Below are positions 16,511-52,421 of a DNA stretch of 64,000 nucleotides, in pieces (the stretch's first letter is position 1; each line of letters begins with the position of its first letter). The notes under the pieces were generated by a model. That model ran no database searches, was not told where the DNA came from, and was given only the letters and a program-made list of their open reading frames with translations. The position numbers were made by a program, and so were the translations under genes. The stretch comes from Spirochaetota bacterium (GTDB taxonomy: Bacteria; Spirochaetota; Spirochaetia; ARS1246): assembly GCA_024275515.1 (NCBI GenBank), contig JAJRYZ010000255.1, positions 1 to 64,000 of the forward strand, given 5' to 3'.

Positions 16511-16555
16511 CATATCCCGGTTCCGCATGGGATCGGAAAAGCAATGGAGGTTTCT

Positions 16556-18022
16556 ATGAAAAGATTTTTGGTGGTTACGTTGATGGCGTTCGTTGTTGCA
16601 TCGGTTGGGTTCGCTGCAGCCGCCGCAGAACAGGAAGCGTCCTCTGAGCGTATTACGCTTACCGTTTGGACGAATTCAAACATGGAAGCGTTTCCTCCGG
16701 GACAAGATGAGAACAACAATCCCATCCATGCGTATCTGGAAGAAAAAACGGGCTATAAGCTTCACTGGCTTATTGGTTCTCAGGAAAACGCCCTGGCAAA
16801 ACTCAGCCTCCTCTTGGCATCAGGCGATCCTCCTGATCTGCTCTCTCCCATATCGAGGCAGTTTTTCGGCGAGCTCGTGAACCAGAGGGTGTTGTATGAA
16901 CTTGATGAACTGATAGAAAAACGCGGCTCAATCTTTAAAAGAGACGACGTCGTGCCGGCCGGTCTTTGGCTGGCAGCACGTTCCGGTGGCCACACGTACG
17001 GTATTCCACAGCAAGGCGCCGTTCAGTCGCTGGGCGGGCCGCTCATCCGGAAAGATTGGCTGGATGAAGCAGGCCTTGAAGTTCCGACAACAATCGAGGA
17101 CTTCTATAACGTTTTGCAGGCATTCAAAACCATGCGTCCGGAATCCATACCCATGACAGGAGATACAAACAGTGTCCGGGGGGGGATATCGCCGTTTGCC
17201 GGCCACTTCAATGCTGCAGTGATTTACGCGGAGTCGAATGGCAAGGTAATCGACACTCGGGTTACTGACGATATGAAAGAGTTTCTAGGCTTTCTTGCAC
17301 GGCTCGTTCGCGAAGAACTCTTGGATCAGGAATACGTGATCAACAAAGGTAAGAATATCAAGGAGAAAGTGGCCGGCGGTAAAGTTGGTCTCTTTTCGAG
17401 TGCTCCTTGGGGATTGCGAGATCTTCTTCCCGCCTTTGAGGAAAAGAATCCGGGAGGCAAGTACATTTTTATCGCGCCTGCGATAGATAAGAACGGAAAT
17501 GCAGGCGTACGTGAGCGGAACCCGATTCGAGGATTTGCCACGATTGCAGCCGATTCGAAGCATCCCGATGAAGCGTTTGATTTTCTCGTAAAATATGCTT
17601 CCAGCCGGGAAATCCAAGACTTTGTGTCCTACGGCGTGGAAGGAGTTCACTACAATAGGGACTCGAACGGCATTATCACAGCCACGGAAGCCGGGGCGGC
17701 GAGAAAGCACAACATTTACTACGTGATTTGGAATACGCCCGATGCGCACCTGATGCGGGCGAAAATGAAGGGCTTTTGGCCGGTCTATGAGCCAACATTC
17801 AAATACTCTCTGTACAAAGACGTCACTTCTTATGCACCCCCTATCGCCGACCTGGAGGCCGTAAAGACGCAGTTGGCGGATCTCACCGACGAGATGTTCG
17901 ATAAAATCATTATTGGTGCCGAACCCTTATCTGCTTTCGATGAGTATAAAAGGCAATGGAAGCAACTTGGCGGACAAAAAGCGCTTGATGCGGTAAACGC
18001 CTGGTACGCAAGTACACAGTAA
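16556..18022 (+). CDS. Extracellular sugar-binding protein of the first ABC module
   Basis: A 488-residue periplasmic solute-binding protein of the LipO/CUT1 type. The signal peptide is 'MKRFLVVTLMAFVVASVGF' followed by an Ala-rich cleavage site and mature 'EQEASSERITLTVW'; no lipobox cysteine is present. Start ATG 16556 is chosen over ATG 16544 because GGAGG lies between them at ideal spacing. The C-terminus 'ALDAVNAWYASTQ' parallels 'EINAWYSSRR' of the second module's binding protein. It is followed by a strong 13-bp terminator hairpin. Confidence 0.9.
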   Translation: MKRFLVVTLMAFVVASVGFAAAAAEQEASSERITLTVWTNSNMEAFPPGQDENNNPIHAYLEEKTGYKLHWLIGSQENALAKLSLLLASGDPPDLLSPISRQFFGELVNQRVLYELDELIEKRGSIFKRDDVVPAGLWLAARSGGHTYGIPQQGAVQSLGGPLIRKDWLDEAGLEVPTTIEDFYNVLQAFKTMRPESIPMTGDTNSVRGGISPFAGHFNAAVIYAESNGKVIDTRVTDDMKEFLGFLARLVREELLDQEYVINKGKNIKEKVAGGKVGLFSSAPWGLRDLLPAFEEKNPGGKYIFIAPAIDKNGNAGVRERNPIRGFATIAADSKHPDEAFDFLVKYASSREIQDFVSYGVEGVHYNRDSNGIITATEAGAARKHNIYYVIWNTPDAHLMRAKMKGFWPVYEPTFKYSLYKDVTSYAPPIADLEAVKTQLADLTDEMFDKIIIGAEPLSAFDEYKRQWKQLGGQKALDAVNAWYASTQ

Positions 18023-18044: not shown

Positions 18045-18077
18045 TGGAGCCGCAGGATGAGAATTCCTGCGGCTCCA
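18045..18077. terminator. Bidirectional terminator hairpin between binding protein and sulfatase genes
   Basis: TGGAGCCGCAGGA and TCCTGCGGCTCCA form a perfect 13-bp stem with a 7-nt loop between two convergent stop codons (18022 and 18120). A canonical U-run is weak on both strands, so termination efficiency is uncertain. Confidence 0.75.
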
Positions 18078-48234: not shown

Positions 48235-48708
48235 CTATATTTCGACCCATTCGTCCTGCAGTATCTCTCCTTCCACGCTTACCACCTGCAGCTTGATCGG
48301 CACCTGACGTTCCGCCTTTGCCGCGGCTTCGACCGCCATCGCGAGGAGACCACGACAGCACGGCACCTGCATGATCATGACGGTGAGAGTGTTGATTTTG
48401 GCCTCATCGATCAGAGCCACTATTTTTTGTTGGTAAATGTCGTGACCTTCGTCGAGCTTCGGACAGGCGATCCCGAGGGCTTTGCCTTTCAGGTGTTCCG
48501 CGTGAAAGCTGCCCATCGCATAGGCCACGCAGTCGGCGCTCAGCAACACGTCCGCGCCCTGGTAGTACGGTGCGCTCGGGGATACCAGATGCATCTGAAC
48601 CGGCCATTGCCGGAGTTGGGAAGACGCGTCGGTCGTCGCCGTCGCGGCCTCCTCCTGTTCGTTGCTCCGATCGATCATCCTCGATCCCGGACATCCTGCA
48701 AACTCCAT
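48235..48708 (-). CDS. Small CPGS-motif protein related to the C-terminus of 4Fe-4S ferredoxin-type proteins
   Basis: 157 residues. It begins 'MEFAGCPGSRM' and then shows the conserved blocks 'SQLRQWPVQMHLVSPSAPYYQGADVLL', 'ADCVAYAMGSFH', 'IACPKLDEG' and 'INTLTVMIMQVPCCRGL'. From memory, these blocks normally follow a two-cluster ferredoxin domain; that domain is absent here. The start is secure: TTGGAGG lies 7 nt before ATG 48708, with a promoter-like palindrome region upstream. Four cysteines remain (CPGS, ADC, ACP, PCC) that could hold a cluster. Co-orientation with the hemerythrin gene suggests a redox or NO-stress role. Confidence 0.75.
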   Translation of the reverse strand: MEFAGCPGSRMIDRSNEQEEAATATTDASSQLRQWPVQMHLVSPSAPYYQGADVLLSADCVAYAMGSFHAEHLKGKALGIACPKLDEGHDIYQQKIVALIDEAKINTLTVMIMQVPCCRGLLAMAVEAAAKAERQVPIKLQVVSVEGEILQDEWVEI

Positions 48709-48773
48709 CTCAAACCTCCAATTGTGCGTCTGAAACCCGACGAAAACTTCACGCGGGCCACACGTTTAAACAT

Positions 48774-48804
48774 GCTAAACAGGATACTACATATCCCGTT
48801 TAGC
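48774..48804. promoter_or_regulatory. 31-bp near-perfect operator-like dyad
   Basis: GCTAAACAGGATA, CTACA, TATCCCGTTTAGC: 12 of 13 positions are symmetric. A separate GTTTAAAC at 48764-48771 repeats the GTTTA half-site. The dyad is about 65 bp upstream of ATG 48708, where an activator or repressor of the CPGS/hemerythrin genes would bind. It does not match FNR (TTGAT-N4-ATCAA). Confidence 0.65.
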
Positions 48805-48848
48805 CAATAATAAGTACCCGCTTCTCTCGTGTCAATGCTTTTCTGCGC

Positions 48849-49067
48849 TTATCCCAGCTTCAGGTGCTTCACGGGAAATCTGATACCGGCCTGGGCAAGC
48901 CTGTGTGCCTGCGGACTGCCTCTCCGAAACGCAACCGAACCGGTGGCGATCCCCGCCAAGCCTGAAGTAATATAGTACAAGTCGGCAATGCCGCGACGGT
49001 GGTGGACCCGGATGCGGATCGCGAGTTTCCCTGCATGAACGCTCGAATAGGCCGGTCCGGCGGACAT
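48849..49067 (-). CDS. Possible 72-residue hypothetical protein
   Basis: The ORF 'MSAGPAYSSVHAGKLAIRIR...' has codon choice like real genes here (many C/G third positions) and ends in a hydrophobic-then-basic pattern ('YYITSGLAGIATGS', 'IRFPVKHLKLG'). No ribosome-binding site is found at useful spacing, and no family is recognised. It may be a small gene, a remnant of a larger one, or chance. Confidence 0.3.
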   Translation of the reverse strand: MSAGPAYSSVHAGKLAIRIRVHHRRGIADLYYITSGLAGIATGSVAFRRGSPQAHRLAQAGIRFPVKHLKLG

Positions 49068-49111
49068 CCCTTTCGGCCGATCCCGATCCGGTGTCCCGCG
49101 GAGGCAAAGAG

Positions 49112-51574
49112 ATGACCGAACGCGAACGTCCGCAGTCCGAAACAGAAAGAGACAATCGGGAATGGATCGAGTCGGTCGAGCCGCTCGATCTGACCAACAG
49201 GAGAGGAAACGATCTATCCGCGGACTACTGCCGGATCCTATCCCGATGGGTTGGCTTTGCAGACACGACCTTTGAAACGTGGCCCGAACGACCCGGATGC
49301 GGCCATTTCTTCGGCGGCTCCTATTGGTACGGTAACGATACGGCCAATCCGGTCCTCGTCTACGCCGTGATGTCTCGCGCCCCGGAGTACGACGAAACGC
49401 TCTCCGGCCTGACGCGAGCGGCGCTCGGCGAGAGGGCCGTCGCGGCCATTCGCTTCCTCTGCTATACCCACGACAGTGGCCCCGAGGACTGCGTCCGGCC
49501 GAAGGGGCCGAACCCTCACGCGAGCGGCCGAAAATGGGGCGGAAAAGGCGACACGTTCTTTCGCGCGATCGTACACGCAGTTCCGATTTGCGCTCTTGGT
49601 GTGGGTTCGTGGATCATCTGGGATGAGTTGGACTCGGAACTGAAGGCACGCATTGCAACTATCGTTACCGACTTTGCCGATCGCTGGAGCCGAGAAGATC
49701 CGCGAAACGGCGCCTACTACGACACCCAATCTGAAGAGAACGCGTGTACCGGAATGGGAATCGCGTTTGGCGCGAACATGTTTCCCGAACATCCTCACGC
49801 GCCGGCATGGGAAGAGGCGGCAAAGAAGTGGATCGTGAATTGCTGCACCGTGCCGGAAGACCGGTACGGCGATCTCATGCTCGACGGAAAGCGAGTGCGG
49901 GACTGGGTAACCACGACCACCACTCACCCGGACTTCACCGTCGAGAACCACGGCATCGTCCACCCGAATTATATGGGTTCCAAGATCGGCCTTGCCGGAA
50001 TCTACGCGCTGTGGCACCTGCTCTCCGGAAAGAACACCCCTGCAGTCGCCTGGTACCACGCGCCGGAAATCTACCGGGTTCTCAAACAGATGCACGATGT
50101 CGACGGCCAGTGCAACTTCGTCCAGAGTCAGGACTGGTGGTACATCCGGTACACCGACGCTGCCGTGCTTCACTGTTTCATGAACGTTCTCGGTAATGAC
50201 CCGGAGGCGGCGCTTCAGGAACGTATCGCCCTCGACTATGCGGTCAAGCTACAGAACAGCAACGAGTCCGGCTGCCTTTTCATCGAAAACGGGTCGGCGT
50301 TCAGGATTACCGAGTATCAAACCGCATGGAGCTTCGAGCCCCAGACTGCCGGACGGCTGGCTCTGGGCTACCTGCTCCATCTTTTCGGTGGAATCGGAGT
50401 CGAGCCCTGCACACCACAACAGTTCGCCAAGAATAACGGCGGGACATTCGTTTTCCCCCACGGAGGTTTTATCATCCATAGCGAACCGGGCAGTTTCGCC
50501 TCCACGTCGTGGCGAAACACCATTATGCATCTGACGATGCCCCGGGAGGGGAAGTGGGCGGTCTCACCATACCCCAAGAGCTACGTCGGAGAGTTCGTCA
50601 CCGCCGATTCGGCGAACGATCGACCTGCTCTGCTTGCTCATCGATATGAGCTTCGGGAAGCCGGGTATTCCAGCACCGCTCACTACGTACGAGCCGGCGG
50701 CGCGATCGACCAGTTCACGGCGTTCACCTCGCTGCCGGGGGGTGTCACCGTCTACTCGGAGATCTCCGTGGCCACAACGAACGTCGATCTCGATGAGATT
50801 CGTGGATGCCCGGTCGGCATCAGAAACGAGTCGTACGGCGAATTGGGATCCTTGGCGAAAGGCTTTCGACATATCTACAGCGCAGGCGGCGTGCTGGAGG
50901 CGAGGGGCTACACGGGAGGGGATAGTGACGAGTGGTTCCATTTCCCCGGACTCGACTGGATCAACATCGACGATACCATGGGCTACCTTCTATCGGGCAG
51001 CCTCGGAGTTTCCTACCGGAACCGCCACCTCTACCCCAAATGGAAAGGGATTGAGGACGTGCTCTATCTCAACTATTCGCGGGACCGCCGCCGGCTCGTC
51101 GCGGGAGCGCCGATAACGAGCCTGCTGGCTTGCACATTCGCAAACCAGCATCATGACACCACGAGAGCTCTCTCGGAACGAGTACCAACACCGGTCTCTT
51201 CGCGGGAGTCGACCGCAATAACAGTCGAGGATTTTCTCGTTGTGTCGAATTTCGCTTGCCATGAACGCAACGTCGAGGTCGAAATCGACATACGCGGATT
51301 GGACACCTTTCCGATCTTTCCGGGAAGCGGGCGAATCACCGCCGGTCGGTACCGTCTCGACGTCCCGGTCGGCGGTTTGTGTACCGAGGTTCTCCGCGCG
51401 GCCGCCTTCGTCGGCGGTGTGGATGCGGAGGATCTGACGATCGACGTGCCTTGCCGCAGCCGACTGCTTATTGAAAACAGAAGGCGCGCGGAGACGACGA
51501 TCATGGTGACGGTCGATCGGCGGAGGCGATCGATCCGTCTCGCTTCCGCCGCCGTCACACCCGTCGATCTTTAG
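49112..51574 (+). CDS. Predicted polysaccharide lyase-like protein with (alpha/alpha)-toroid and beta-sandwich
   Basis: An 820-residue protein without a signal peptide. The N-terminal half is helical, with aromatic patches and a catalytic-looking 'TVENHGIVHPNYMGSK' block (Asn-His and Tyr), as in heparinase II/III or alginate-lyase toroid folds. The C-terminal half is beta-rich ('GGTFVFPHGGFIIHSEPG', 'GGAIDQFTAFTSLPGGVTVYSEIS'), as in the sandwich of such lyases. I cannot name the family or substrate. The track start 49091 is a GTG; ATG 49112 with GGAGG is better. Sulfatases and a GH2 enzyme elsewhere in the window fit a role in uronate-containing glycan breakdown, acting inside the cell on imported oligosaccharides. 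Confidence 0.6.
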   Translation: MTERERPQSETERDNREWIESVEPLDLTNRRGNDLSADYCRILSRWVGFADTTFETWPERPGCGHFFGGSYWYGNDTANPVLVYAVMSRAPEYDETLSGLTRAALGERAVAAIRFLCYTHDSGPEDCVRPKGPNPHASGRKWGGKGDTFFRAIVHAVPICALGVGSWIIWDELDSELKARIATIVTDFADRWSREDPRNGAYYDTQSEENACTGMGIAFGANMFPEHPHAPAWEEAAKKWIVNCCTVPEDRYGDLMLDGKRVRDWVTTTTTHPDFTVENHGIVHPNYMGSKIGLAGIYALWHLLSGKNTPAVAWYHAPEIYRVLKQMHDVDGQCNFVQSQDWWYIRYTDAAVLHCFMNVLGNDPEAALQERIALDYAVKLQNSNESGCLFIENGSAFRITEYQTAWSFEPQTAGRLALGYLLHLFGGIGVEPCTPQQFAKNNGGTFVFPHGGFIIHSEPGSFASTSWRNTIMHLTMPREGKWAVSPYPKSYVGEFVTADSANDRPALLAHRYELREAGYSSTAHYVRAGGAIDQFTAFTSLPGGVTVYSEISVATTNVDLDEIRGCPVGIRNESYGELGSLAKGFRHIYSAGGVLEARGYTGGDSDEWFHFPGLDWINIDDTMGYLLSGSLGVSYRNRHLYPKWKGIEDVLYLNYSRDRRRLVAGAPITSLLACTFANQHHDTTRALSERVPTPVSSRESTAITVEDFLVVSNFACHERNVEVEIDIRGLDTFPIFPGSGRITAGRYRLDVPVGGLCTEVLRAAAFVGGVDAEDLTIDVPCRSRLLIENRRRAETTIMVTVDRRRRSIRLASAAVTPVDL

Positions 51575-51658: not shown

Positions 51659-51889
51659 TCAGACCGGATTCAGCTCACGACGGGAATTGTCGCATTCCGG
51701 CCACAGCTGAATGGCGTTTGAACCGGTCACGAGATCTCCGACGTCGATCCTCACCAGTGGGAAGGTGTAGGAACAACAATGTCGACGGGCCACGCCGGAG
51801 TCCGCCCATCCATGAGTGCAACCGGTCCAGGCTACGGTCGGTGACCGGAGGACGCCGCGTTTGCATCCGACATCGTTTCTCAAGAGCAA
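51659..51889 (-). pseudogene. Possible relic of a beta-sandwich protein
   Basis: The 76-residue frame contains 'FPLVRIDVGDLVTGSNAIQL', the pattern of a paired beta-strand/turn found in carbohydrate-active beta-sandwich domains ('V-x-I-D-V-x-x-L-V-x-G-x-N'). There is no start signal and the rest is not domain-like, so a decayed gene end is the best reading. Chance is possible. Confidence 0.25.
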
Positions 51890-51906
51890 TTTGCCCGGGT
51901 CGCGCG

Positions 51907-51939
51907 CAATTATTACAATTGGGTGTAGTTACGAATTGT
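51907..51939. promoter_or_regulatory. AATT-repeat dyads, putative Fur-family operator
   Basis: CAATT-ATTAC-AATTG (51907-51921) is a perfect 5-5-5 dyad, and a further GAATTGT (51933-51939) pairs with ACAATTG (51915-51921) across 11 bp. The array lies 18-50 bp before the Fur-family ATG. It is unlike the surrounding GC-rich DNA and suits autoregulation by a Fur-type dimer. Confidence 0.55.
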
Positions 51940-51956
51940 CGCAAGAAGGGGGAGCG

Positions 51957-52421
51957 ATGAGTCACGACTTACCGGCCATTGCAGTTCGATTGCGTCGGGC
52001 AGGCTACAGGATGACGCCGCAGCGACAACTTATTCTCGACGCGGTCTGTGATTTGGGCGGGCATGTGGCGCCGGAACAGGTGTACGAACACGTACAAAAC
52101 ACTGCGCCCACGCTCAACCGGGCGACGGTCTATCGTGCGCTCAGTTTCCTCACCGAGCAGCGTATTATCACCGCCACGCAACGGTCGCCCGGTCGTCTCT
52201 GCTACGAAATCCCCAGCCGGGAACCGCATCACCACCTGGTCTGTCGTCGGTGCGGCAAATCCATCGTACTGCCAAACACCACGCTCAAAAAACTCGTTGA
52301 GGCGGTGGAAACCCGACACGGCTTCCGTATCGATATGGACCACATCTCATTTTTCGGTCATTGCTCTCGTTGCCGCCGGAATGAGAAACGAGAAACCGAG
52401 TCAGGTCCGCCGGCGAGGTAG
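51957..52421 (+). CDS. Fur-family metalloregulator
   Basis: A 154-residue regulator. The N-terminal winged helix is 'YRMTPQRQLILDAV' through 'NRATVYRALSFLTEQRII'. The C-terminal metal/dimer domain has 'EPHHHLVCRRCGKSI' and a second CxxC, 'HCSRCRRNE', which form the structural zinc site. The track start at 51816 is too early; ATG 51957 has GGGGGAG. The adjacent NiCoT transporter suggests a nickel (Nur-like) or cobalt role, but Zur, PerR or Fur cannot be excluded. AATT dyads upstream suggest autoregulation. Confidence 0.9.
   Translation: MSHDLPAIAVRLRRAGYRMTPQRQLILDAVCDLGGHVAPEQVYEHVQNTAPTLNRATVYRALSFLTEQRIITATQRSPGRLCYEIPSREPHHHLVCRRCGKSIVLPNTTLKKLVEAVETRHGFRIDMDHISFFGHCSRCRRNEKRETESGPPAR

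Follow-up and report, generated by a model that had tools for sequence, protein, structure and literature searches.

A dyad over the promoter of a CPGS/hemerythrin operon in a spirochaete genome is a putative Rrf2-type operator with a second copy before an Rrf2-family gene

We analyzed a 64,000-nucleotide stretch of a Spirochaetota genome (hereafter the window) and found that an inverted repeat ahead of a gene pair, encoding a short CPGS-motif protein and a hemerythrin protein, probably serves as operator for a repressor of the Rrf2 family. The sequence of the dyad, the promoter next to it, the restriction of the motif to two loci and the homology of both promoters are direct observations, whereas binding, repression and the signal are predictions. 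The best reading is an autoregulated Rrf2-type repressor with a putative two-site regulon, an operator-regulator pair that is ordinary in kind and has a clear origin. A repeat that had no assignment thereby becomes part of a testable pair of regulator and operator, and the finding points to Rrf2 control of a widespread, unnamed hemerythrin/CPGS gene pair.

Table 1 Features of the window and of related loci (window positions unless a locus is named).
Feature	Position	Strand	Remark
-35 hexamer TTGACA, operon promoter	48830..48835	-	promoter search
-10 hexamer TATTAT	48807..48812	-	17 nt from -35; 11/12 consensus positions
Putative operator dyad GCTAAACGGGATA-TGTAG-TATCCTGTTTAGC	48774..48804	-	starts 2 nt after -10; same module in C126 Rrf2 promoter
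GTTTAAAC palindrome, extra half-site of the preliminary description	48764..48771	.	absent from second module copy
GCGTGAAGTTTTCGTC, 16 nt identical to C126 Rrf2 start codon and first codons	48738..48753	-	alignment
Short CPGS-motif protein, 157 aa	48235..48708	-	five invariant cysteines: C5, C59, C81, C116, C117 (alignment numbering)
DUF1858-like plus hemerythrin protein, 255 aa	47366..48133	-	partner of short CPGS protein in many phyla
AATGATAC-N7-GTATCATT sites	L024 523, L030 3909, L032 2922, L039 3613, L045 3756, L050 776, L051 3071, L062 4205, L065 1252, L076 3685, L094 3775		
C175-type Rrf2 clade loci	L142, L145-L147, L172-L183		

The dyad and the promoter of the CPGS/hemerythrin operon

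The dyad, GCTAAACAGGATA-CTACA-TATCCCGTTTAGC on the plus strand, consists of two 13-nt arms separated by a 5-nt spacer and forms 12 of 13 arm pairs; it is present before the CPGS/hemerythrin pair exactly as the preliminary description had written it. The single mismatched pair is A/C on the plus strand and G-T on the minus strand. A scan of every window position for dyads of 13+5+13 geometry reached 12/13 pairs at one further place, 18046 (chance expectation 0.04). That stretch, 18046-18076 (GGAGCCGCAGGATGAGAATTCCTGCGGCTCC), is an equally good dyad, GC-rich and resembling a terminator hairpin, near where the reading frame 16544-18022 ends. The earlier count of at least three GTTTA half-sites is unsupported, because the additional element, GTTTAAAC, is a self-complementary 8-mer, a palindrome of its own, and is missing from the module's second copy, on contig C126; it probably lies outside the operator. 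The earlier description of a regulatory-looking dyad before a CPGS/hemerythrin pair that matches no standard box of FNR, NsrR or PerR was borne out.

The minus strand is the coding strand of the operon and carries a strong, near-consensus sigma-70 promoter, TTGACA-N17-TATTAT (48835-48807). A sigma-70 promoter search of 48650-49150 found this one promoter, compared with 0.1 expected in shuffles. Since the dyad starts two bases past the -10 hexamer, it likely covers the start site, whose position is deduced from the promoter. A dyad over the likely start site is the layout of a repressor and its operator for the CPGS/hemerythrin operon, and its odd-centred form, overlapping -10 and the predicted +1, is what would be expected of the operator of an autoregulated Rrf2 repressor.

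The short CPGS protein has no Pfam or NCBIfam match; its five cysteines are invariant among relatives, and its AlphaFold model is poor (pLDDT 59), with PDB matches to the model that are not meaningful. The partner protein contains a hemerythrin domain (PF01814, 5.5e-17) and an N-terminus with a sub-threshold DUF1858/prismane-associated match. A relative of this DUF1858/hemerythrin gene adjoins the CPGS gene in 30/38 short-form loci versus 1/69 loci of the longer, ferredoxin-fused form, and the CPGS/hemerythrin pair is therefore a real module. We infer that its genes may act in NO stress. Hybrid cluster protein (Hcp) was considered as a third target and rejected: the sole prismane-family gene encodes the CO dehydrogenase catalytic subunit CooS (L171 1399-3324, G000:C171), so the genome appears to lack Hcp.

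A second promoter-operator copy and its common descent

The outer pattern GCTAAAC-N17-GTTTAGC, for which the preliminary description had suggested a genome-wide scan, has no second match at 0 or 1 mismatch anywhere in the 4.2-Mb genome. The full dyad is unique in that sense; its core together with a single outer arm recurs once, within an Rrf2 promoter. Namely, GGATA-N5-TATCC-N-GTTTAGC at 0 mismatches is found at two loci only: the window, in both dyad orientations, and contig C126, at 157-179, ahead of an Rrf2 start at 125. The promoter of this Rrf2-family gene reads TTGACA-N17-TATAAT, two bases, then GCTAAACAGGATATTCAATATCC (GCTAAACAGGATA-N5-TATCC), and the spacing TTGACA-N17-TATnAT-N2-operator is identical at both loci. 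C126 does not retain the dyad's right outer arm. A site placed within an Rrf2 gene's own promoter is what would be expected of the operator of an autoregulated Rrf2 repressor.

Among 395 genomes of the class, the promoter-operator pattern TATNATNNGCTAAACNGGATANNNNNTATCC occurs at 0 mismatches in the window and on C126 and nowhere else with fewer than 3. All matches in other class genomes have 3 mismatches; the three that were inspected, in G162, G234 and G153, genomes that also carry an rrf2 gene of the type found on contig C175 (below), are coding or unrelated sequence and were rejected as not lying in comparable promoters. A candidate third site for the core with one arm, on contig C18 (1 mismatch), was dismissed because it falls within a 384-aa reading frame and has no matching promoter; with two sites and no further one, there is no basis for refining the motif. 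A search for the motif ahead of orthologues in 118 relatives yielded, elsewhere, nothing better than matches with 2 to 3 mismatches. The preliminary description had taken absence before orthologues to count against the motif; literally it is absent in other lineages, but their operators and regulators differ, which argues for a lineage-specific operator rather than the absence of one. Paper searches for the motif strings returned nothing relevant.

The window and C126 regions align over ~96 bp with a local score of 61 (shuffle mean 22, sd 3.2, largest 38 of 1000). Downstream of the operator alone the alignment is weaker, reached by 6/2000 shuffles, and contains a 16-nt identity in register. 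On C126 this segment, GCGTGAAGTTTTCGTC, is the start of the Rrf2 gene (GTG AAG TTT TCG TC, MKFSS), and its GTG lies 54 nt from the operator start, versus 52 nt in the window. The window copy sits in the CPGS gene's leader and is probably vestigial, since the Shine-Dalgarno-like AAGGA present before it on C126 is missing there. Between the copies, both hexamers, the left arm of the dyad and the core are conserved, in contrast to the diverged 17-nt promoter spacer and a leader that has changed over most of its length. This pattern argues for selection maintaining promoter and operator. The promoters are homologous by descent, so their similarity does not reflect two independent inventions of the motif. 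By this comparison the window promoter appears to derive from an Rrf2 promoter, either through duplication or because an rrf2 gene formerly at the head of the operon was lost, and such descent would account for the rrf2 start codons left over in the leader. These would provide a clean example of promoter recruitment by duplication or regulator-gene loss.

The candidate regulator and Rrf2 genes beside the module elsewhere

The C126 gene is seen for 41 codons, an Rrf2-family N-terminus (41% to intact Rrf2, tblastn), before the contig ends, and its PF02082 match (25.5 bits) is therefore under the curated cut-off. Apart from it, the genome has just one broken Rrf2 gene, of which a 92-codon C-terminal part stands at the beginning of contig C175. 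The two ends (L135, L133) abut exactly and in frame (ETY-L-EQIL), and joined they give a 134-aa protein without cysteine. That they are surely one gene, however, is weakened by the differing affinity of the two parts: the C175 part has 42-66% identity to its clade, the N-terminal 40 residues of C126 17-33% to the same clade, and this gap is larger than in any pair of clade members (between-half identity difference 0.06 +/- 0.07, max 0.24). We somewhat favor a single gene, perhaps a hybrid, over two separate genes that happen to be interrupted at one and the same codon.

The C175 part belongs to a clade whose members have few cysteines or none and carry the signature GALAPVESVSKYFYE, and in which a TauE/SafE-type exporter is linked in 16/18 loci, suggesting a sulfur-related signal for the clade. 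For the proposed regulator of the window operon, our confidence in any signal is much lower than in the Rrf2-type operator: Fe-S/NO would be the candidate if the true C-terminus lies elsewhere, and reactive sulfur or another cluster-free signal if C175 continues C126.

Rrf2 genes accompany the same module in other lineages. An Rrf2 gene is located in the same ~10-kb locus in 9/38 short-form loci, there within 5 kb of the short CPGS gene, and in 9/69 long-form loci, counts that are lower bounds given a home-made profile and loci often ended by contig ends. In one spirochaete (L045) the gene order is rrf2-hemerythrin-CPGS. The linked Rrf2 proteins have the cysteines that typify the Fe-S members of the family, and a strongly conserved operator AATGATAC-N7-GTATCATT or close (0-2 mismatches) is found at 11 loci in several phyla, upstream of rrf2-hemerythrin-CPGS or rrf2-CPGS clusters of Omnitrophota, Planctomycetota, Spirochaetia, Chlamydiae, Elusimicrobia and others. 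A full-text search found no published description of this operator, and it does not occur in the window's genome at 0-1 mismatch. The linked rrf2 genes and the shared operator suggest that Rrf2 control of the module is common, with the window's genome carrying its own variant, and the conserved element offers a handle on what the gene pair responds to. The closest orthologue of the short CPGS gene in the class (G054) has an FNR/HcpR-like TTGACCCGGATCAA upstream (L097 907-920) and no Rrf2-type site.

Taken together, an Rrf2-family repressor would bind the dyad on the start site of the strong sigma-70 promoter and would repress its own gene through the second promoter-operator copy on C126. On meeting its signal, most likely nitrogen-oxide, oxidative or reactive-sulfur stress, the regulator would leave the DNA and the CPGS/hemerythrin operon would be expressed. 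A bolder proposal, which we put forward tentatively and consider rather doubtful, is that regulon growth is seen here in the act: a repressor's promoter, operator and first codons would have been copied before a stress operon (or left there by a lost linked rrf2), whereby the linked Fe-S Rrf2 that controls the same pair in other phyla gave way to an unlinked Rrf2, possibly hybrid and cysteine-free.

Alternative explanations and comparison with known regulators

The dyad might instead act as RNA, as a stable hairpin at the 5' end of the operon mRNA, shielding the transcript or masking its leader. The minus-strand RNA indeed forms an uninterrupted hairpin (z-score -3.5), because the lone mismatch becomes a G-U pair, and this hairpin would stand at the likely 5' end of the mRNA. 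We nevertheless regard this role as improbable: on C126 the outer arms no longer pair, yet GCTAAACNGGATA-N5-TATCC is kept, as DNA recognition predicts, the first bases of the left arm are probably upstream of +1, and Rfam gave no match above threshold, the one weaker hit being a chance match that lies outside the dyad. Slightly less credible still is that the promoters resemble each other through recent duplication only, with a dyad of no regulatory role. Homology over ~96 bp that includes rrf2 codons would fit such a history, but the -35, the -10, the left arm and the core were kept where the spacer and most of the leader diverged, and in the window the copy is moreover nearly perfect as a dyad.

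Sites for other regulator families are very unlikely. A Fur-family gene (PF01475, 4.8e-23) lies three kilobases off, at 51816-52421, and Fur and PerR boxes, of 7-1-7 form (GATAATnATTATC or TTATAATnATTATAA), are odd-centred as well, both of which would suit a site for a Fur/PerR-type regulator such as the product of that gene. Read directly, however, the dyad is not a 7-1-7 box, nor of GATAATGAT or TTATAAT type; the motif is nowhere else in the window, hence not before 51816-52421, and its sole other genomic copy precedes an Rrf2 gene. We give equally little credence to a site for an NO regulator of the CRP/FNR type (HcpR, DNR, FNR), even with the FNR/HcpR-like element of the G054 orthologue and with HcpR regulons that often include hemerythrin- and ferredoxin-like genes (PMC1274295). 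Published sites for HcpR, FNR and CRP have an even centre and a spacer of 4 or 6 bases (PMC1274295), whereas the 31-bp dyad is odd-centred and has half-sites other than those of TTGAC-N4-GTCAA, GTAAC-N4-GTTAC and TGTGA-N6-TCACA, and CRP-type HTH matches in the window's genome are weak (best 30 bits).

Read as an Rrf2-type operator, the dyad would share with NsrR the regulator family, a small regulon to which the regulator's own promoter belongs, a repressor site over a strong promoter, and stress-defense targets including di-iron repair proteins. It differs in sequence from the NsrR consensus, AAGATGyATTT-N-AAATrCATCTT, and the joined C126/C175 protein, its joining being uncertain, scores 37.2 bits against the NsrR model (cut-off 182). 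Given this operator misfit and a score far below the cut-off, we do not file the regulator as NsrR. Neither the C126 half nor the C175 half, an uncertain continuation of C126, contains the cluster-binding cysteines, of which NsrR has three. In Streptomyces coelicolor, the NsrR operators are those of hmpA1, hmpA2 and nsrR, 23-bp sites (PMC9338935).

Odd-centred dyads over the promoter are usual for Rrf2 repressors, and the SifR operator, TGTAA-N9-TTACA (PMC9218516), is odd-centred like the window dyad. If C126 and C175 are one gene, their product would be cluster-free like CymR, SifR and HypR, and CymR is its best match among the named models (84 bits, cut-off 195, the joining being uncertain). 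It differs from these repressors in operator sequence, in a score below the CymR cut-off and in having no cysteine in the parts seen. The rrf2-hemerythrin-CPGS operons of other lineages (e.g. L045, L076, L024) present the same gene pair with an Rrf2 regulator and a dyad over the promoter, but there the regulator is linked, has Fe-S-type cysteines and is paired with the AATGATAC-N7-GTATCATT operator.
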